From Pseudolabrys sp. (lineage in GTDB: Bacteria > Pseudomonadota > Alphaproteobacteria > Rhizobiales > Xanthobacteraceae), in NCBI GenBank assembly GCA_022843325.1, contig JALHNV010000039.1:1-34166 (forward strand): DNA of 34,166 nucleotides, in the 5' to 3' direction. The stretch's first letter is position 1, and every line of letters begins with the position of its first letter. Position numbers and translations under genes: made by a program. A model generated the notes under the pieces. That model did not search any database. It was given only the letters and a program-made list of their open reading frames with translations, and was not told where the DNA came from. Positions 3,720-30,790 of the stretch are shown one piece after another.

Positions 3720-4043
3720 ATGGCGGAAACACTGCGATCGTTAGCCGCGGCCCTCGGGCTGCTCGGACTGCTGACCGGCTGTTCGGGCGGAGTCATCGGC
3801 GATGCGCTGCCGTCCGGGATGGGGGGGCTGCCGCAGGCCGCGCCGGCAAGACCGTCTGCACCGGCAAAGTTTCCGGCCGTCCATGACATGCCGCCGCCGC
3901 GGAGCTCCGCTCCCATGACCGAGGCGGAGCACTTCAAGCTCGAAAAGGAGCTGGAGGCGGCCCGGGATCGTCAGGCCGGGGCCGCCGAGCCCGCCCCAGC
4001 GGCCCCGCCGGCAACGAAAAAGAAGCCGGCGCCGGCCCGATAA
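3720..4043 (+). CDS. Small predicted lipoprotein, unknown function
   Basis: From ATG 3720 the product has 107 residues. It begins with a short signal sequence ending in the lipobox LLTGC, so lipidation at Cys20 and membrane anchoring are expected. The rest is rich in Pro and Ala. It has a short charged, probably helical stretch (roughly residues 65-83, EAEHFKLEKELEAARD) and ends in a Lys/Pro/Ala tail. I recognise no enzymatic domain. An upstream TTG at 3672 would add 16 residues ahead of the signal sequence and is unlikely. It precedes alaC on the same strand with a 117-base gap holding a hairpin. Small lipoproteins are common in this position in related bacteria, but a function cannot be stated. 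Confidence 0.7.
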   Translation: MAETLRSLAAALGLLGLLTGCSGGVIGDALPSGMGGLPQAAPARPSAPAKFPAVHDMPPPRSSAPMTEAEHFKLEKELEAARDRQAGAAEPAPAAPPATKKKPAPAR

Positions 4044-4080
4044 TGCCGAGAACTCTGGCGCCTAGCGTAACCCGTGATAA

Positions 4081-4109
4081 AAGCCAGCCGGGGTCACGAC
4101 GGCTGGCTT
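4081..4109. terminator. Hairpin between the lipoprotein gene and alaC
   Basis: There is a perfect 10-base stem, AAGCCAGCCG (4081-4090) and CGGCTGGCTT (4100-4109), with a 9-base loop. An A-run precedes it, so the T-tract typical of an intrinsic terminator is present only when read on the minus strand. On the plus strand it could slow or end transcription of the lipoprotein gene, or act as a leader structure for alaC. Confidence 0.5.
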
Positions 4110-4160
4110 GAGAGGGTCGTCAGCGCGCGCACGTTGAAAGCGATTTGAAGGTCCGAGCCG

Positions 4161-5378
4161 ATGGAAGAATTCTACAGAATCCGCCGCCTGCCGCCTTACG
4201 TCTTTGAAGAAGTGAACAAGGCCAAGGCCAAGGCGCGTGCGGCAGGGGCAGACATCGTCGACCTCGGCATGGGCAATCCCGATTTGCCGGCGCCCCAGCA
4301 CGTCATCGACAAGCTCAAGGAGACCTTGGGCAAGCCGCGCACCGACCGCTACTCCGCCTCGCGCGGCATTCCGGGGCTGCGCCGCGCTCAGGCCGCCTAT
4401 TATGAGCGGCGCTTCGGCGTGAAGCTCAACCCCGACACGCAGGTGATCGCGACGCTGGGCTCGAAAGAGGGCTTCGCCAACATGGCGCAGGCCATCACGG
4501 CGCCCGGCGACGTGGTGATCGTGCCCGACCCGAGCTATCCGATTCACGCCTTCGGCTTCCTGATGGCGGGCGGCGTGATCCGCTCGGTGTCGTCGGAGCC
4601 GACGCCGGACTTCTTCGTGCAGGTCGAGCGCGCCATCCGCCACTCGATCCCGAAGCCGATCGCCATCGTCGTCTGCTATCCGTCGAACCCGACCGCCTTC
4701 GTCGCCGGTCTTGATTTCTACAAGGACCTCGTCGCCTTCGCCAAGAAGCACGAAATCTTCATCCTCTCGGACCTCGCTTACGCCGAGGTGTATTTCGACG
4801 GCGAACGGCCGCCGTCGGTGTTGCAGGTGCCGGGCGCCAATGACGTGACCGTCGAGTTCACCTCGATGTCGAAGACGTTCTCGATGGCCGGCTGGCGCAT
4901 GGGTTTTGCCGTCGGCAACGAGCGGCTGATCGCGGCGCTCGGCCGCGTGAAGTCCTATCTGGATTACGGCGCCTTCACGCCGGTGCAGGTCGCCGCCGCC
5001 GCGGCGCTCAACGGGCCGGACGATTGCGTGAAGGAGATGCGGGCGACCTACACCAAGCGACGCGACGTGATGATCGACAGCTTCTCCCGCGCCGGCTGGG
5101 ATGTGCCGTCGCCGTCGGCCTCGATGTTTGCATGGTCGCCGATTCCGGAGCCATTCCGCGAAATGGGCTCGGTCGAGTTCTCCAAATTGCTGGTCGAGAA
5201 GGCCGAGGTGGCGGTGTCGCCCGGGACCGGCTTCGGCGAGCGGGGCGAGGGCTTTGTCCGGATCGCGCTGGTCGAGAACGAGCAGCGCATCCGCCAGGCG
5301 GCGCGCAACATCAAGCGGTTCCTGGAAACGGCGCCGCGGCAGTTGCACAACGTCGTTCCGCTCGCGACCCGGCGCTGA
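4161..5378 (+). CDS. alaC: Alanine aminotransferase, AlaC type (class I/II PLP aminotransferase)
   Basis: This 405-residue fold-type I PLP enzyme probably catalyses transfer of the amino group between glutamate/2-oxoglutarate and pyruvate/alanine. The PLP-binding lysine is Lys238 in SMSKTFSMAGWRMG. The substrate-binding segments DLGMGNPDLPAP near the N-terminus and CYPSNPTAF in the middle are also visible. The sequence resembles AlaC and LL-diaminopimelate aminotransferases. The AlaC reading is preferred because of its place directly before hom. The stop lies two bases ahead of the hom start, so the two are almost certainly cotranscribed and translationally coupled. Other amino-donor specificity cannot be ruled out from sequence. 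Confidence 0.9.
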   Translation: MEEFYRIRRLPPYVFEEVNKAKAKARAAGADIVDLGMGNPDLPAPQHVIDKLKETLGKPRTDRYSASRGIPGLRRAQAAYYERRFGVKLNPDTQVIATLGSKEGFANMAQAITAPGDVVIVPDPSYPIHAFGFLMAGGVIRSVSSEPTPDFFVQVERAIRHSIPKPIAIVVCYPSNPTAFVAGLDFYKDLVAFAKKHEIFILSDLAYAEVYFDGERPPSVLQVPGANDVTVEFTSMSKTFSMAGWRMGFAVGNERLIAALGRVKSYLDYGAFTPVQVAAAAALNGPDDCVKEMRATYTKRRDVMIDSFSRAGWDVPSPSASMFAWSPIPEPFREMGSVEFSKLLVEKAEVAVSPGTGFGERGEGFVRIALVENEQRIRQAARNIKRFLETAPRQLHNVVPLATRR

Positions 5379-5380
5379 TC

Positions 5381-6694
5381 ATGGCTGAAGCACTCAGAGT
5401 TGGTGTCGCCGGATTGGGCACGGTTGGCGCTGCGCTGATCGCCCAGATCGCGCGGCAGCATGATGCGCTTGCCACGAGATGCGGACGGGCGATCGACGTG
5501 GTCGCGGTCAGCGCCCGGTCCAAGGGCAAGGACCGCGGCGTCGATCTCAAGAAGATGAAATGGTTTGCCGATCCGGTGGAGCTTGCCGGATTCGAGGGCA
5601 TCGACGTGTACGTCGAACTGATGGGCGGCTCGGGCGATCCGGCCAAGACAGCCGTCGAATATGCATTGGCCTCCGGCAAGTCGGTGGTCACCGCCAACAA
5701 GGCGATGCTGGCGAAGCACGGCTTCAAGCTGGCGCAGCTTGCCGAGAAATCCGGTGTTTCGCTCAATTACGAAGCCGCGGTCGGCGCCGCCATTCCGGTG
5801 ATCAAGACTTTGCGGGAAGGGCTCACCGGCAACGCCATCAACCGCATCTACGGCATCCTCAACGGCACCTGCAATTACATCCTCACCCGGATGGAGCAGG
5901 AGGGCCTGTCCTATAACGATTGTCTCAAGGACGCCCAGCGGCTCGGCTATGCGGAAGCCGATCCGACATTCGACGTCGAAGGCTTTGACACGGCACAAAA
6001 GCTGGCTTTGCTGGCGAGTCTTGCATTCGGTACCAGAGTCGATGAGAACGCGATTTATGTCGAGGGCATTTCGTCGATCGCGCCAGCCGATCTCGCCGCC
6101 GCCGACGAGCTTGGCTATCGCATCAAGCTGCTCGGCGTCGCCGTGCGCACGGGCAAGGGCATCGAGCAGCGCGTGCACCCGACCATGGTGCGCAAGGATT
6201 CCGCCATCGCCCAGGTGATGGGCGTGACCAATGCCGTCACCATCGACGCCGAAGGCATCAACCCGATCACGCTGGTCGGCCCCGGCGCCGGCGGCGCCGC
6301 GACCGCCTCGGCCGTGCTGTCGGACATCTGCGACATTGCGCGCGGCCTGCGCACCGCGCCGTTCGGCCGGCCGACCGCGCGCCTGACCGGCGTGCGCAAG
6401 GCGCCGATGCAGCGCCATGAAGGCGGCTATTACATCCGGCTGATGGCGCGCGACCGGCCCGGAACCGCGGCGACCATCGCTACCCGGCTGGCCGAACAGG
6501 AGATTTCGCTGGAGTCGATCGTTCAGCGGCATGCCAAAGACGACGCCGGCACGGTCAAAAAGGGCGGGGCGGTGCCGGTGATCCTGGTGACCTATGCGAC
6601 CAGCGAGGATGCCGTTAGAAAAGCCCTCGCTGCGGTGGGGCGCGACAAGGTGATCTCGGGCCGGCCGCAAGTGATCCGGATTGAAAAGAACTAG
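5381..6694 (+). CDS. hom: Homoserine dehydrogenase
   Basis: This 437-residue enzyme reduces aspartate semialdehyde to homoserine with NAD(P)H, at the branch to threonine, methionine and isoleucine. The N-terminus has the Rossmann motif GVAGLGTVG. The catalytic-domain segment VVTANKAMLAKHG follows, then NGTCNYILTRM and GYAEADPTFDVEGFD, all typical of the family. The C-terminal 80 or so residues form an ACT domain (from YYIRLMARDRPG), which suggests feedback control by threonine or a related amino acid. The ATG at 5381 lies two bases after the alaC stop. A longer open frame upstream lies inside alaC and is not used. No aspartokinase domain is fused. Confidence 0.96.
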   Translation: MAEALRVGVAGLGTVGAALIAQIARQHDALATRCGRAIDVVAVSARSKGKDRGVDLKKMKWFADPVELAGFEGIDVYVELMGGSGDPAKTAVEYALASGKSVVTANKAMLAKHGFKLAQLAEKSGVSLNYEAAVGAAIPVIKTLREGLTGNAINRIYGILNGTCNYILTRMEQEGLSYNDCLKDAQRLGYAEADPTFDVEGFDTAQKLALLASLAFGTRVDENAIYVEGISSIAPADLAAADELGYRIKLLGVAVRTGKGIEQRVHPTMVRKDSAIAQVMGVTNAVTIDAEGINPITLVGPGAGGAATASAVLSDICDIARGLRTAPFGRPTARLTGVRKAPMQRHEGGYYIRLMARDRPGTAATIATRLAEQEISLESIVQRHAKDDAGTVKKGGAVPVILVTYATSEDAVRKALAAVGRDKVISGRPQVIRIEKN

Positions 6695-25454: not shown

Positions 25455-26021
25455 TCAATCCTTGGCGCGCTCGACATAAGCGCCGTCCGCGGTCATCACC
25501 ACCACGCGGGTGCCGACAGTGATGTGGGTCGGCACCATGGTGCGGACGCCGTTCGACAAAATCGCCGGCTTGAACGAGCCGGATGCGGTCTGGCCTTTCA
25601 TCGCCGGTTCGGTCTCGGTGATTTCCAGCGTGACCTTCTGCGGAATTTCGATCGATATCGCGTTGCCTTCGTGCATCGAAAGCTGAACCTTCATGCCTTC
25701 CTGCAGGTAGGCGGCCATGTCGCCGACAATGTCAGTCTGCAGCGCCACCTGGTCGTAGGTCTGGTCGTTCATGAAGTGGAAGCCGTCGGCGTCCTGGTAG
25801 AGGTAGGAATATTCAACCTCTTCGACATGGGCGCGCTCGACCTGATCGGTGGTCTTGTAACGCATCTGGGTCTTCACGCCGTCGGAAATCCGGCGCATAT
25901 CGATCTGGGTCGTCGGGGTGCCCTTGCCGGGATGAAAGCTTTCCGCGTTCAGCACCACGTAGAGCTTGCCTTCGAGATCGACGATATTGCCCTTGCGGAG
26001 CTGGCTGGCGATGACCTTCAC
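25455..26021 (-). CDS. efp: Elongation factor P
   Basis: EF-P rescues ribosomes stalled at consecutive prolines. The 188 residues and three-domain pattern match the family. The domain I loop HPGKGTP carries the modifiable lysine at residue 33 (Lys34 in E. coli numbering). The lysine and its Gly flanks are of the type that is beta-lysylated by EpmA and EpmB. Both modification genes lie divergently next door. The start is ATG 26021. Confidence 0.98.
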
Positions 26022-26140
26022 GACGGGTATCCTTAGCTTGATGGCGGGTTTCGGGCCGCACCATACCGATCTTCTCGGCCGATACCAGTCTTTCTCCCCA
26101 AGGCTCCGTTAAGTAATTCAAGCCGTAATTTGAGGTCTTT
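26022..26140. promoter_or_regulatory. Divergent promoter region of efp and epmA
   Basis: This 119-base gap separates the efp start and the epmA GTG start and must hold both promoters, linking the factor to its modification enzymes. The epmA ribosome site is the GAGG at 26132-26135. Confidence 0.5.
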
Positions 26141-27190
26141 GTGCGCGAAACCACGCCCTTTTGGCTGCCCGGACTGCATGCCGCCCGGCGGCCTTATCTG
26201 CTGGCGCGGAACCGCATCGCCGCGGCGGTGCGGGGCTGGTTCGCGGGGCAGGATTTTGTCGAGGTCGAGACCGCTACCGTGCAGGTGTCGCCTGGCAACG
26301 AGACCCATCTGCACGCCTTCGCCACCGACCTGATCGGGCCGGGCGGCGAGCGGCGAACGCTCTACTTGCGCACCTCGCCGGAATTCGCCTGCAAGAAACT
26401 GCTGACGGCCGGCGAGACGCGCATTTTCGATTTCGCCCGCGTGTTCCGCAACCGCGAACGCGGCGCGCTGCATCATCCCGAGTTCACGATGCTGGAATGG
26501 TACCGAACCGGCGCGCCCTATGAGATGCTGATGGACGATTGTGCGACGCTGCTGCGTGTCGCGGCGCAGGCGGCAAACACGACGCAATTCACCTTCCGCG
26601 GCAAGAGCATCGATCCTTTTGCCGCGCCGGCACGCGTCACCGTCGCGGAAGCGTTCGCGCGCTACGCCGGCGTCGATCTGCTGGCGACGGTGAGGGACGG
26701 CGAGGGTGATCGCGACGCACTGGCGGCAGCGGCGACTGCTGCCGGTGTTGTCATTGCCGTTGACGACACCTGGGGCGACATCTTCAGCCGCATTCTGGCC
26801 GAACGCGTCGACCCGCATCTCGGCATCGGCCGCGCCACCATCCTCTCCGAATATCCGCTGCCGCTGGCGGCGCTGGCGCGGGCCAAGCCCGGCAGTGATC
26901 AGGTCGCCGAGCGGTTCGAGCTTTATGCCTGCGGCGTGGAGCTCGGCAACGCCTTCGGCGAACTGACCGACGTCAACGAGCAACGCGCCCGCTTTGCGGC
27001 GGCGATGGACGAGAAAGAGCGCATTCACGGCGAGCGCTATCCGGTCGATGAGGATTTCCTCGCTGCGCTCGCAGAAATGCCGCAGGCCTGCGGTATCGCG
27101 CTCGGCTTCGACCGGCTGGTGATGCTGGCAACGGGTGCACAACGCATCGACCAGGTGATATGGACGCCGATGGTGGACATTGATGACTGA
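26141..27190 (+). CDS. epmA: EF-P--(R)-beta-lysine ligase EpmA
   Basis: The enzyme is a lysyl-tRNA synthetase paralogue (also called PoxA/GenX/YjeA) that attaches beta-lysine to EF-P. It has 349 residues, without the tRNA anticodon-binding domain. Class II motifs are visible: FRNRERGALHHPEFTMLEWY (motif 2) and GIALGFDRLVML (motif 3, arginine in GFDR). The start is GTG 26141, five bases after GAGG. It overlaps nothing upstream and is followed by epmB after 13 bases. The context with efp and epmB makes the EpmA reading firm over a true lysyl-tRNA synthetase. Confidence 0.95.
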   Translation: MRETTPFWLPGLHAARRPYLLARNRIAAAVRGWFAGQDFVEVETATVQVSPGNETHLHAFATDLIGPGGERRTLYLRTSPEFACKKLLTAGETRIFDFARVFRNRERGALHHPEFTMLEWYRTGAPYEMLMDDCATLLRVAAQAANTTQFTFRGKSIDPFAAPARVTVAEAFARYAGVDLLATVRDGEGDRDALAAAATAAGVVIAVDDTWGDIFSRILAERVDPHLGIGRATILSEYPLPLAALARAKPGSDQVAERFELYACGVELGNAFGELTDVNEQRARFAAAMDEKERIHGERYPVDEDFLAALAEMPQACGIALGFDRLVMLATGAQRIDQVIWTPMVDIDD

Positions 27191-27203
27191 CAGGGAGTGC
27201 GTC

Positions 27204-28253
27204 ATGCCGACACTGCGAACAGCAGCCCAGATCGTCGAGCGCGGCCTGGCGCCAGCCGAGAGCCGCGTCGGTCTCGATGCCGTTGCCGCGCGTTATGCGG
27301 TCGCCGTGCCGGCGCATCTGGCGGCGTTGATCGACCATGCCGATCCGGCGGATCCGATCGCCCGGCAGGTGGTGCCCGACGTCGCCGAACTCGACGCGCG
27401 CGCTGACGAATTGGCCGACCCGATCGGCGATGACGCGCACAGTCCGGTCGAGGGCATCGTGCATCGCTATCCGGACCGCGTGCTGCTCAAGGTGACGCAT
27501 GTCTGCGCGGTCTATTGCCGCTTCTGCTTCCGCCGCGAGATGGTGGGGCCCGATAAGCCGAACGCGCTGTCGGCCAAGGCGCTGGCGACGGCGCTCGATT
27601 ACATCCGCGGCGACAAGAATATCTGGGAGGTGATCCTGACCGGCGGCGATCCGCTGGTGCTGTCGCCGCGCCGGTTGCGCGCCGTGATGCAGGCGCTAGG
27701 CGCGATCGACCACGTCAAGGTGGTGCGCATTCATACGCGCATTCCGGTTGCCGATCCGGCGCGCGTTACGCCGGAACTGGTGCGGGCGATGAAGATCAAG
27801 GGCAAGCCGACATACGTTGCCGTCCACGTCAACCACGCGCGTGAACTCAGCGCCATGGCGCGCAACGCCGTCGCGCGGATGGCCGATGCGGGGATGCCGC
27901 TGCTGGCGCAGTCGGTTCTGCTGAAGGGCGTCAACGATACGCCTGAAGCCATGGCCGATCTGATGCGGGCTTTGGTGGAGTGCCGCATCAAGCCTTATTA
28001 TCTGCATCACGGCGATCTGGCGCCGGGCACAAGCCATTTGCGCACCGATCTTGAGACCGGGCAGGTGCTGATGCGCGGGCTGCGCGGCCGGGTGTCGGGC
28101 TTATGCCAGCCGAGCTATGTGCTCGACATCCCCGGCGGCCACGGCAAGTCGCCGATCGGACCGAGCTATGTTCAAGATGCGCCAGGCGGGGGACAGGTGG
28201 TTGAGGATTTCAAAGGTGTCCGGCACGTCTATCCGCCGCCGGCCGGCGGCTAG
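27204..28253 (+). CDS. epmB: EF-P (R)-beta-lysylation protein EpmB (lysine 2,3-aminomutase family)
   Basis: This radical-SAM, PLP-dependent enzyme converts (S)-alpha-lysine to (R)-beta-lysine for EF-P modification. The 349-residue protein has the iron-sulfur cluster motif CAVYCRFC (CxxxCxxC) and the segment VILTGGDPLVLS, as expected. A C-terminal PLP lysine region lies near PGGHGKSP. ATG 27204 has a GGGAG site six bases upstream. Earlier in-frame starts overlap the epmA stop. It lies in an operon with epmA. Its stop overlaps the convergent small-protein stop in CTAG. Confidence 0.94.
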   Translation: MPTLRTAAQIVERGLAPAESRVGLDAVAARYAVAVPAHLAALIDHADPADPIARQVVPDVAELDARADELADPIGDDAHSPVEGIVHRYPDRVLLKVTHVCAVYCRFCFRREMVGPDKPNALSAKALATALDYIRGDKNIWEVILTGGDPLVLSPRRLRAVMQALGAIDHVKVVRIHTRIPVADPARVTPELVRAMKIKGKPTYVAVHVNHARELSAMARNAVARMADAGMPLLAQSVLLKGVNDTPEAMADLMRALVECRIKPYYLHHGDLAPGTSHLRTDLETGQVLMRGLRGRVSGLCQPSYVLDIPGGHGKSPIGPSYVQDAPGGGQVVEDFKGVRHVYPPPAGG

Positions 28254-28618: not shown

Positions 28619-28879
28619 ATGTCGGACGAAGAACGACCGTCGCTGTCGCGACGCAAGGCACTGGGGTTGCTCGGTCTAACGGCGTTGACGGGCTATGCTG
28701 CGCCGATGGCTCTGAATCTGTCGGAGGCAAAGGCTCGCAGTCGAACCCGCAGCCGCAGCCGCTCTCGCGGCCGCAAAAAGGACGCCAAGTCGAACCGCTC
28801 GCGCAACCGCTCGATGGCGCGTAGCCGGAACCGCAGCCGCAATCGGAGCAGAACCCGTAGCCGCAGCCGCGCCCGATAA
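28619..28879 (+). CDS. Arg-Ser-repeat small protein with twin-arginine/leader-like N-terminus (possible modified-peptide precursor)
   Basis: The 86-residue product has two parts. Residues 1-39 look like a twin-arginine signal or leader: SRRKALGLLG (Arg11-Arg12), a hydrophobic stretch, and AKA before residue 40 as a possible cleavage site. Residues 40-86 alternate Arg with Ser, Thr or Asn almost without break, as in RSRTRSRSRSR and RSRNRSRNRSRTRSRSR. This part contains 20 Arg, 12 Ser and 2 Thr in 47 residues, with only a small KK/DAK interruption. A GGGAGA ribosome site lies five bases before ATG. The kinase and PqqD-like genes follow. The tail resembles SR domains that are Ser-phosphorylated in eukaryotes. 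A nucleic-acid- or anion-binding role is the alternative. The gene is well supported. Function is inferred. Confidence 0.75.
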   Translation: MSDEERPSLSRRKALGLLGLTALTGYAAPMALNLSEAKARSRTRSRSRSRGRKKDAKSNRSRNRSMARSRNRSRNRSRTRSRSRAR

Positions 28880-28908
28880 GCCGGCTGTGCCGACTCTATC
28901 GCCTCTCA

Positions 28909-28942
28909 AGAAGACGGCGCCCCGAAAGCGGCGCCGTCTTCT
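28909..28942 (+). terminator. Strong hairpin between peptide gene and kinase gene (attenuator-like)
   Basis: A perfect 13-base stem, AGAAGACGGCGCC (28909-28921) with GGCGCCGTCTTCT (28930-28942), has an 8-base loop. It starts 29 bases after the peptide stop and lacks a long T-tract. It would partly end transcription or protect the peptide mRNA, lowering kinase expression relative to the peptide. It overlaps the N-terminal codons of the longest kinase frame. Confidence 0.65.
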
Positions 28943-28952
28943 GCGTCGTAAC

Positions 28953-29819
28953 GTGCTGACGTTCGGTGGCGAGGGCTGGACCATCGACCTTTCGGATGGC
29001 GGGATGGTGGTGGCCGGCCTGCAAACCATCCTGCACGGCTGGCAGCTATCGGTCAGCAGGCCCGCAGGTGTGGTGGCCGATGTGCGGATATGGAAGACGG
29101 CACGCGGCTATTCCTGGCGATCGACCGCGCTTCCCAAGCCGTTCCTGTGGCGGGAGCGCGCGCCGCGCACGGCCATGGAGGTGGTGGCCGACGTCCACGA
29201 CGTGCTGTTCGACTGGTATCTGCAATCCCGGTCTGACACGCCGTGTCTGCATGCCGGCGCCGTCCGGATCGGCGATGGCCTGGTGTGCCTGATCGGGCAG
29301 ACCCGCGCCGGCAAGAGCACGCTGTGCGGCGAATTGCTCGCCGCCGGTCATCAACTGTATTGCGACGACGTCTTGCCAATCGATCCGCAGACGTACGAGG
29401 GAATGGGATTGGGCATTGCCCCGGTGTTGCGTCTTCCAGCTCCCGCCACGCCGCGCGCGCGGATCGCAGCCTTTGCCGCATCGCGGCTCGGCCCGCGCAG
29501 CCGTAACCGAGCCTATCTGGCGGTGGAGGAAGGCCGCATCGCGCCGTTCGGCAGCCGCGCGCCGGTTCGTCACATTGTCCTGCTGGAGCGCAAGGAGGGC
29601 GAAAAGGCTCGGCTGGTGCCGGTGACCGTCTCGGACACGTTGCGCGAACTGATCCTACGGAATTTCGGCAGCCGCGCCGATACGCGCGTCGCTTTGGCCA
29701 AACTTCACACCGTCGTCGCAGCCGCGCATTGCCATCGGCTGTTTTACAGCGACCTGCGCGAGGCGGCGGACCTCATCGAGCGGCAGTGCGGAGAAGAGGG
29801 CAGTCATGGCCGGTGCTGA
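28953..29819 (+). CDS. HPr-kinase-like ATPase (HprK-related, peptide-modification type)
   Basis: The protein has the core of the HPr kinase C-terminal domain: LHAGAVRIGDGLVCLIG, then the P-loop GQTRAGKST and the paired aspartates in QLYCDDVLPID. Residue positions for the P-loop are 137-145 in the longest frame (GTG 28887, 310 residues). I place the start at GTG 28953 because the longer N-terminus (22 residues, very basic) is encoded by a perfect hairpin. ATG 29005 is another option. The HprK K/P signature loop needed for phosphorolysis is not seen, so only kinase activity is expected. Relatives in RiPP clusters phosphorylate serine in lasso-peptide precursors. The 3' end overlaps the PqqD-like start by 14 bases, so the pair is coupled. 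The substrate is inferred to be the adjacent peptide. Confidence 0.8.
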   Translation: MLTFGGEGWTIDLSDGGMVVAGLQTILHGWQLSVSRPAGVVADVRIWKTARGYSWRSTALPKPFLWRERAPRTAMEVVADVHDVLFDWYLQSRSDTPCLHAGAVRIGDGLVCLIGQTRAGKSTLCGELLAAGHQLYCDDVLPIDPQTYEGMGLGIAPVLRLPAPATPRARIAAFAASRLGPRSRNRAYLAVEEGRIAPFGSRAPVRHIVLLERKEGEKARLVPVTVSDTLRELILRNFGSRADTRVALAKLHTVVAAAHCHRLFYSDLREAADLIERQCGEEGSHGRC

Positions 29820-30093
29820 GCGACAAGGCGCGCGCTATCGCCGCTGCGGCGATGTCGAGGTGCGGGAGGCCGACGGCAATATTTTCCTCGCCGGCGGGTC
29901 GGCGAATGAGATCTACCTGCTCGATCCGCTGGCGACCGCGTTCTGGCGCTTGCTGGAGCAGCCGCAGACGCTCGACGAGGTCGGCGCGGTCTTCGCTGCG
30001 GCTTTCCCCGACGTGCCGCCGGCACAGCTTGCGAAAGACATCCGCAATCTTGCGGCCACGCTGGAGCGCGCCGGGATGGTGCAGACGGGCTAG
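29806..30093 (+). CDS. PqqD-family protein (RiPP recognition element)
   Basis: This is a 95-residue protein with the PqqD-like winged-helix pattern: an N-terminal beta part (YRRCGDVEVREADGNIFLAG), the segment EIYLLDPLATAFWRLLEQP, TLDEVGAVFAAAF, and a last helix DIRNLAATLERAGMV. PqqD proteins bind leader peptides and present them to modifying enzymes. In HprK-related systems they accompany the kinase. The gene overlaps the kinase gene end (29806-29819), so they are translated together. There are no pqqA, B, C or E genes nearby, so this is not PQQ synthesis. It would most simply be the chaperone for the Arg-Ser peptide. The stop lies four bases from a convergent stop. Confidence 0.82.
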   Translation: MAGAERQGARYRRCGDVEVREADGNIFLAGGSANEIYLLDPLATAFWRLLEQPQTLDEVGAVFAAAFPDVPPAQLAKDIRNLAATLERAGMVQTG

Positions 30094-30097
30094 GGGG

Positions 30098-30790
30098 TTA
30101 TCGCGGCGGCGGCGTCTCGGTGCCGCTTAGGCCACCGAGGCCCATGCCGGGACCGCCGCCCATTCCGCCACCACCACCACCACCACCACCACCACCACCA
30201 CGTCCGCCGCCTTCCGCGCCACCGCGGCCGCCGCGTCCACCCGCGGCCGAGGGCCGCGTCGGCCCCTGCAGCGGGATCGCGAGATCGGCCGGAATCGGCT
30301 CCAGATCGAGCGCCTTGCGGATGAAATCGCGCAGAGACACGACCAGTTCGTCGGTCGGGACGGGCTGACCGGCCAGCAGGCTGCGCGCGGCGCGCTCGGC
30401 GAGGCGGACGTGCTCTTCGGTGCCCAGCAGGATGATATCCGACAGCGCCGCCTCGACCGCGTCGCGGATGCGCCGGCGGCGATCCGAACCTTGGTCGCTG
30501 GCCTCGGCGGGCGCCGCCGGGGATTCGCGATCGGCATCGACCGCCACGTGAAAATCGCGCTTGTGTTTGGGATCGACGGTGAGGGTACCGGTGAAGGAAC
30601 CGCCCAGTACCTTGTAAGCGGCGATCAGCGTGCGCAGGCGTTCGTTGATCTGGCGGTTGAGGCGCTGCTGGCGCTGCTGGAGGGTCACCATCACGATCAG
30701 CCGGATGCCGACGCCGATCAGCGTGATCAGCGCCAGCCCGATCAGGGTCGCCAGGATACTGTCCCAGGAACTGAAATCGACGTTGCGCAT
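30098..30790 (-). CDS. Membrane-anchored protein with poly-glycine C-terminus, unknown function
   Basis: This 230-residue protein has one N-terminal membrane segment (about residues 12-36, ILATLIGLALITLIGVGIRL). A cytoplasmic or periplasmic charged helical part follows (QQRQQRLNRQINERLRTLIA). A central domain includes DAVEAALSDIILLGTEEHVRLAERA, and the tail is Gly/Met-rich with a run of twelve glycines. A GGAGG site lies just ahead of ATG 30790. The poly-glycine is coded by an unbroken GGT repeat. I recognise no named family. The helical part after the membrane segment suggests oligomerisation. It is convergent with the PqqD-like gene, with four bases between stops. Confidence 0.75.
   Translation of the reverse strand: MRNVDFSSWDSILATLIGLALITLIGVGIRLIVMVTLQQRQQRLNRQINERLRTLIAAYKVLGGSFTGTLTVDPKHKRDFHVAVDADRESPAAPAEASDQGSDRRRRIRDAVEAALSDIILLGTEEHVRLAERAARSLLAGQPVPTDELVVSLRDFIRKALDLEPIPADLAIPLQGPTRPSAAGGRGGRGGAEGGGRGGGGGGGGGGGGMGGGPGMGLGGLSGTETPPPR
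30168..30200. repeat. (CCA)11 trinucleotide repeat (codes poly-Gly on the minus strand)
   Basis: Eleven perfect CCA units (GGT on the coding strand) form a 33-base microsatellite inside the poly-glycine tail of the membrane protein gene. Length change by slippage would keep the frame. Confidence 0.9.

Follow-up and report, generated by a model that had tools for sequence, protein, structure and literature searches.

A conserved leader peptide, HprK-like kinase and PqqD-like protein in Pseudolabrys and other Alphaproteobacteria: a probable system for peptide phosphorylation and export

The stretch analyzed here (the window) spans positions 1 to 34,166 of contig JALHNV010000039.1 (contig C39 in our numbering) from Pseudolabrys sp. 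(assembly GCA_022843325.1, family Xanthobacteraceae) and harbors a compact cassette of three genes. These encode a short precursor peptide, a kinase resembling HPr kinase (HprK) and a PqqD-like protein, the latter a recognition element (RRE) of the kind known from ribosomally synthesized and post-translationally modified peptides (RiPPs). The cassette is laid out as follows:

28619..28879, + strand: precursor peptide gene, 86 amino acids; ATG start with GGGAG 6 bases upstream
28619..28735, + strand: leader, residues 1-39, with the motifs R11-R12 (28649-28654), Y26-A-A-P29 (28694-28705) and A37-K-A39 (28727-28735)
28736..28876, + strand: variable tail with Arg-Ser repeats, residues 40-86 (47 amino acids)
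28887..29819, + strand: HprK-like kinase, 310 amino acids; possible alternative start GTG at 28953; key residues H122 (29250-29252), K143-S144 (29313-29318) and D160-D161 (29364-29369)
28909..28942, + strand: strong RNA hairpin without a T-run at the peptide-kinase junction (z -4.2)
29806..30093, + strand: PqqD-like RRE, 95 amino acids; 14-bp overlap with the kinase gene

This confirmed the arrangement proposed in an earlier reading made without database searches (the sequence-only reading): an 86-residue peptide with a leader and a 47-residue Arg-Ser tail, followed by the kinase gene and the pqqD-like gene overlapping it. The peptide opens with MSDEERPSLSRRKALGLLGLTALTGYAAPMALNLSEAKA, and the remaining 47 residues are rich in Arg and Ser. 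Its tail is 67% Arg plus Ser (counted from residue 41) and 26% Ser, the repeat pattern being broken by GRKKDAK and MA, and the first tail serine is residue 41, the second residue past the AxA motif.

Scores of the kinase against curated family models were low: 17.6 bits for Pfam HprK (cut-off 33.3), 15 bits for TIGR00679 (HprK; cut-off 240) and a weak 40.8 bits for NCBIfam HprK_rel_A (cut-off 200). Membership among true HprK proteins was rejected on the TIGR00679 score. Membership in the HPr-rel-A system (NCBIfam TIGR04352/TIGR04353), which likewise combines an HprK-related kinase with a PqqD-like chaperone, was rejected because the window kinase and PqqD-like protein both fall under the curated cut-offs (40.8 vs 200 and 16.7 vs 35 bits). 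Despite these scores, the proposed likeness to HprK held: the protein retains H122, G142-K143-S144 and D160-D161, and a profile built from it and 12 relatives matched the solved HPr kinases 1ko7 (E 4e-6) and 1jb1 (E 8e-6). Aligned by motif, without superposition, H122, K143, S144, D160 and D161 correspond to H148, K169, S170, D186 and D187 of the lasso peptide kinase BsfK, where these residues are important (PMC10368454). The PqqD-like protein exceeded the cut-off of Pfam PF05402 (44.5 vs 23.4 bits), and its profile with 9 relatives matched the lasso B1 proteins TbiB1 (E 8e-11) and TfuB1 (E 4e-5). Lasso B1-leader complexes were also the best Foldseek matches of its structure model, TbiB1 and TfuB1 on top, at a predicted local distance difference test score (pLDDT) of 85; profile and predicted fold agree in placing it in the PqqD/RRE family.

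A search of genome contigs with the window kinase sequence alone returned no relative. Among 197 other genomes drawn from the window's family, one (L003) encoded a close kinase relative (44-45% identity) in the same gene order, with a window-like leader and with kinase and PqqD-like protein joined in one protein; the tail of its peptide differs (RSRRRRRSHPDWWY repeats). The draws from the order and the class, made with a two-row kinase profile, yielded kinase matches at E 1e-8 in 20 of 397 and 47 of 385 genomes (Alphaproteobacteria), respectively. At eight loci (L032-L038 and L052) a leader peptide lay beside kinase and PqqD-like protein, the two being fused in 6/8; L032 carried a Ser-Arg/Ser-Lys tail and L037 an Arg-Ser tail, while in L033 the peptide was downstream. 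By eye, the L039 locus was degenerate, and L040 had neither the ATP-site lysine nor a visible peptide.

Co-occurrence was assessed by searching the 385 genomes of the class draw with a profile of ten leaders. It returned 46 hits at E ≤5e-7 in 35 genomes, in open frames of 69-324 residues; weaker hits lay mostly in long frames. Leader and kinase (E 1e-12) occurred together in 33 genomes, kinase only in 3 (G682, G764, G924), leader only in 2 (G692, G951) and neither in 347 (Fisher p 7e-42, ignoring shared ancestry), and the 33 double-positive genomes span 17 families; two of them, G000 and G805, had supplied rows to the leader profile. Loosening the kinase cut-off to 1e-8 gave 33, 14, 2 and 336. 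In 19 of the 35 leader-positive genomes (11 families), no more than 2.5 kb separated leader and kinase. Of 46 selected genomes searched with the PqqD profile, 40 gave a match; among the 36 kinase-positive class genomes, PqqD was fused to the kinase or no more than 300 bp away in 28, lay elsewhere in 4, all from family f148, and was absent in 4, namely G876 and the three kinase-only genomes, which also lack the leader. In a leader-first sample of 16 genomes, 10 encoded the kinase and 9 a PqqD, which in all nine adjoined the kinase or was fused to it; this sample is partly dependent, as at least four of its genomes also belong to the class draw (G951/L118, G957/L128, G793/L129, G638/L130), three of which gave the query. 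G966 encoded a second, weaker PqqD elsewhere in its genome.

These counts indicate that the parts co-occur even in genomes whose peptide gene lies apart, and that leader peptide, kinase and PqqD-like protein are one conserved, co-inherited system, as the sequence-only reading had proposed in pairing a precursor with a PqqD recognition element and an HprK-type kinase. That an ordinary low-complexity exported peptide merely neighbors an unrelated kinase/PqqD pair would fit the 16/35 leader-positive genomes in which the genes are not together, but the 33/3/2/347 distribution, which holds also where the genes are apart, led us to reject chance adjacency. We regard this explanation as highly improbable; it was already unlikely unless shared ancestry alone accounts for 17 families. 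At three loci with the peptide apart, L070 (G876), L114 (G664) and L116 (G607), regB/regA-like redox regulators precede the kinase, which in G607 and G664 is followed by HlyD-like and ABC-transporter-like genes (all by eye).

The constant part of the precursors is the leader, which reads RRxxL, 15 residues, YxxP and then AxA; the Arg-Ser tail is not constant. We surveyed 52 peptides, comprising 42 of the 46 class-draw hits, 8 family and order loci, and 2 from G973 and G974. The set omits the G595 copy on C10, the G853 copy on C103, the third G787 copy, G700, L039, L040 and those leaders of L118-L133 that are not also from class-draw genomes; several peptides were trimmed at the N-terminus. RRxxL was present in 52/52 and YxxP in 51/52, frequencies that are partly a product of selection since the peptides were found by leader profile. 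With L034, which has no YxxP, left out of the offset counts, the spacing from RR to Tyr was 15 residues in 49/51 and AxA followed 11 or 12 residues past Tyr in 49/51. The window leader matched profile A4, of which it is itself a member, at E 1.3e-16. Outside the set, the L123 leader reads RRxxP.

Tails, by contrast, varied widely. Ser or Thr was present in all 51 tails examined, and the 31 kinase-linked tails averaged 18% Ser, with the first Ser/Thr at Y+14 to Y+16 (approximately core positions 1-3) in 19/31. Only five of these 31 reached 50% Arg plus Ser (window, L032, L037, G638 and G935, from five families). Arg-Ser is thus one of several tail types, and its role as the defining substrate, put forward in the sequence-only reading, was rejected on the 26/31 below 50%. 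That kinase/PqqD pairs occur without an Arg-Ser peptide holds for the tails of most relatives, but not if what counts is a peptide that carries this leader and contains Ser/Thr. The 20 kinase-unlinked tails all contained Cys, preceded by Ser/Thr at one or two places in 19. Peptides with tails of the P-[S/T]-x-C type adjoin an MmcB-like gene (by eye) in L087, L115, L117 and L124, and occur in tandem in L091 and L097.

This diversity bears on a switch analogous to that of serine/arginine-rich (SR) proteins, in which the kinase phosphorylates most serines of the Arg-Ser tail and so makes a basic peptide near-neutral or acidic. The composition of the window tail (26% Ser, 67% Arg plus Ser) and the recurrence of tails with at least 50% Arg plus Ser in five families fit such a switch. 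However, 26/31 kinase-linked tails lie under that value, and the two characterized relatives, BsfK and LppK, modify a single serine near the leader, at core position 3 (PMC10368454, PMC13381572); we consider the multi-site switch, originally suggested for this cassette, unlikely.

By sequence, the window leader has the features of a twin-arginine translocation (Tat) signal, namely a twin arginine, a hydrophobic stretch and AxA, and TatC is encoded in this genome. The leader also precedes larger proteins. In L134 (Roseovarius azorensis) a leader-bearing subtilase (95.7 bits) and a second leader peptide precede a fused kinase-PqqD gene, and L132 encodes two leader-bearing dihaem cytochromes c (98 and 89 bits; 3783-4325 on the - strand and 5902-6420 on the + strand), one with YxxP but no RR. 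The PepSY domain that the leader precedes in L033 was sub-threshold (23.3 vs 24 bits). The full order at L134:97-4505 is sigma/anti-sigma-like genes (by eye), the subtilase with leader and Gly-Ser linker, the second leader peptide, the fused kinase-PqqD gene and an enolase-like gene. The near-constant RR and AxA, together with the occurrence of the leader ahead of exported-type domains, suggest export, and the twin-arginine option raised earlier gains from RRxxL in 52/52 survey peptides, the exceptions lying outside the set. The most striking feature is this leader, in which an RRE motif and a Tat-like signal are joined.

Two further interpretations start from this leader. First, it may serve both the RRE-kinase and the Tat translocon as a general tag, whose bearers (low-complexity peptides, subtilases, dihaem cytochromes) would be phosphorylated at the mature N-terminus in the cytoplasm before export; we offer this tentatively, as somewhat doubtful. 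If true, it would constitute an alphaproteobacterial system of protein modification and sorting rather than a natural-product pathway. Second, the PqqD-kinase pair might act in Tat quality control, as a leader-binding chaperone that spends ATP to hold or release the precursor, or as a leader kinase, in either case leaving no lasting mark on the mature peptide. The placement of the RRE-type motif within the Tat-like hydrophobic stretch, and the presence of the leader on a subtilase and dihaem cytochromes without a common core, are compatible with quality control, but the residues that a peptide-phosphorylating relative requires are kept here and Ser/Thr occurs in all 51 tails (mean 18% Ser where kinase-linked), making this a rather improbable account.

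We consider it probable that the product of the three genes is a peptide that is phosphorylated and exported. The PqqD-like protein would bind the precursor through the YxxP of its leader, as lasso B1 proteins do, a step suggested by motif, profile and fold; PqqD-like proteins of lasso clusters bind the leader motif [Y/W]xxPx[L/V/I/A/F/Y] (PMC13381572). It would then present the precursor to the HprK-like kinase, with which it forms one fused protein in several relatives. By analogy with BsfK, which phosphorylates core Ser3 in a reaction greatly accelerated by the PqqD-like BsfB1 (PMC10368454), and LppK, which attaches several phosphates to Ser3 in a linear peptide (PMC13381572), the kinase would add at least one phosphate to a Ser/Thr of the mature part, likeliest Ser41 and perhaps other tail serines. 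The same RR/AxA leader may finally take the peptide to the Tat translocon, where an ordinary signal peptidase would cut it off, so that no dedicated peptidase or transporter would be needed. More speculatively, phosphate would reduce the charge of the very basic Arg-Ser peptide, and the product could bind to polymers of the envelope or to nucleic acid.

Several observations weigh against phosphorylation and export by this cassette. Seven distinct leader-bearing genomes lack the kinase (2/35 in the class draw and 6/16 in the leader-first sample, G951 = G960 being shared); the six from the latter lack PqqD as well and carry Cys-type tails, as do all seven, six of which are metagenome-assembled genomes. 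These are the main evidence against strict dependence. G876 has kinase and leader without a PqqD match, and in the 16/35 leader-positive genomes mentioned above the genes are 25-120 kb apart or on separate contigs, or no kinase is present. The leader cut-off was chosen with the list of hits in view (G774 at 3.9e-8 and G700 at 4.8e-7, then G709 at 2.3e-6 and G943 at 7.9e-6), and a looser E 1e-5 would add G709 and G943 as leader-only genomes. L034 has LxxP for YxxP, a type of variation mentioned in PMC12710340; outside the survey set, one L132 leader and both L127 frames have no RR; and the first tail serine lies 21 (L003) and 31 (L032) residues past Tyr. Changing Y, P and L of YxxPxL in BsfA did not abolish phosphorylation (PMC10368454). 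The kinase structure model, whose best Foldseek match was HprK 1kkl (E 1.3e-3), was too poor to rely on (pLDDT 58). The peptide matched no Tat-signal model of NCBIfam or Pfam at E 1; in Pfam it gave only sub-threshold matches to PRP38_assoc (18.3 vs 25 bits) and PetC anchor (13.5 vs 37.1 bits).

The nearest published system we found is that of the linear polyphosphorylated peptides (LPP; Popov et al. 2026), described as restricted to Bacillota (PMC13381572). Both systems place an HprK-like kinase beside a discrete PqqD-type RRE, lack a cyclase, and combine a conserved precursor N-terminus containing [Y/W]xxPx[L/V/I/A/F/Y] (YAAPMA in the window) with a very variable C-terminus. They differ in the leader, which reads YxxPxVLxHQxIxFETxxS in LPP and YAAPMALNLSEAKARS, Tat-like in its RR and AxA, in the window; in the neighboring genes at 25-34 kb of the window, among which there is no SpI peptidase, NTP-transferase or MsbA-like transporter beside the cassette; and in that the window system is alphaproteobacterial, with kinase and RRE fused in several relatives. 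Phosphorylated lasso peptides (paeninodin, ThcoK/SyanK, Bsf; PMC8498205, PMC10368454) share an HprK-like kinase aided by a PqqD-like B1 protein, a YxxP leader and, for Bsf, the key kinase residues. Unlike these, the window contig contains no match to a B2 peptidase or cyclase: matches to PF13471 and PF00733 in this genome fall on C9, C28 and C113. A lasso peptide was accordingly rejected.

A separate lasso-like cluster at C9:4897-9595 (L144) of the same genome contains an HprK-like kinase, a sulfotransferase-like gene (by eye), a PF13471 B2-like peptidase and PqqD, with an Asn-synthase-like cyclase on the other strand, so both kinds can share one cell, as is reported for LPP and lasso kinds in Bacilli (PMC13381572). 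Since this B2-like peptidase and cyclase are present in the genome, they might finish the window peptide in trans; yet the C9 cluster has its own kinase and PqqD. An Arg-Ser tail that ends in Arg does not resemble a lasso core, and processing in trans seems very unlikely.

Other comparisons were more distant. The formate dehydrogenase region TAT target (TIGR02811) is also a short Tat-type peptide, and gave weak sub-cut-off matches to 3/5 related peptides scanned; in this genome one short Tat-type peptide (C127), encoded beside a formate-dehydrogenase-like gene (by eye), carries RR and lacks YxxP. DUF2063 RREs with DUF2282 precursors likewise combine an RRE with a secretion signal on the precursor, but the signal is of Sec type and the precursor has no specific RRE motif, according to PMC12710340. 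Phospeptin is another phosphorylated RiPP, apparently a separate case (PMC9259500). The word kinase is absent from the main text of RRE-Finder (PMC7470986) and of PMC12710340, and our search of the literature on HprK/PqqD, Tat and RiPPs, which extended to few subscription journals and not to bioRxiv, found no recognizable treatment of this system. The best reading is that of an alphaproteobacterial system related both to phosphorylated lasso peptides and to the linear polyphosphorylated peptides of Bacillota, with no cyclase, peptidase or transporter beside it and a precursor that carries a Tat-like leader; it is a real and conserved variant of kinase-RRE peptide modification, undescribed as far as the literature search reaches.

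The cassette is flanked upstream by genes for EF-P, EpmA and a KamA-family radical-SAM protein and downstream by an open reading frame of unknown function, an AraC-family regulator and a PAS-GGDEF-EAL protein. The view that no radical-SAM, protease or cyclase gene is adjacent thus stands for the last, with no B2 or cyclase match on the contig, and fails for the first, as the KamA-family gene (27180-28253) adjoins. This gene stands with EpmA and EF-P: EpmA and the KamA-family gene overlap head to tail opposite EF-P, forming an EF-P modification locus (25455-28253) whose aminomutase scores 528 bits to AblA_like_2, above EpmB (259 bits; EpmB cut-off 369). The KamA gene was kept in 10 of 11 genomes of the genus, the window genome included, whereas ten other genomes drawn from the genus gave no kinase match at E 0.001 and, in two relatives inspected, the 1.5 kb downstream of KamA held no kinase or PqqD frame; the cassette is therefore accessory here. 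Downstream, the open reading frame at 30101-30790 (- strand) ends in a long Gly-rich stretch and matched neither Pfam nor NCBIfam models at the cut-offs applied.

Only 7 bases separate the peptide stop from the start of the kinase frame, and the hairpin lies within its first 22 codons; because it falls between 28887 and 28953, GTG 28953 is a reasonable alternative kinase start. Of seven peptide-kinase junctions folded, four had z ≤ -3 (window, L032, L003, L035) and three did not (L037, L086, L084); the L032 hairpin ends in a T-run. A promoter scan at the locus found none, and the terminator scan did not report the hairpin, which has no T-run. It is possibly an attenuator or mRNA end, and could yield peptide in excess over the enzymes.

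If the proposed phosphorylation and export are true, HprK-type serine phosphorylation in the cytoplasm would extend from lasso peptides and the LPP of Bacillota to precursors with Tat-like leaders across 17 or more families of the class, and RREs would be linked to protein export. Low-complexity proteins (Arg-Ser, Gly-Ser, Pro-Ser) would gain a role, and whether RREs act on whole exported proteins such as the subtilase and the cytochrome could be tested directly. The sulfotransferase-like gene beside the lasso kinase on C9 is also worth a look. With three genes, or two when fused, the set would be small enough to rebuild in a laboratory strain.

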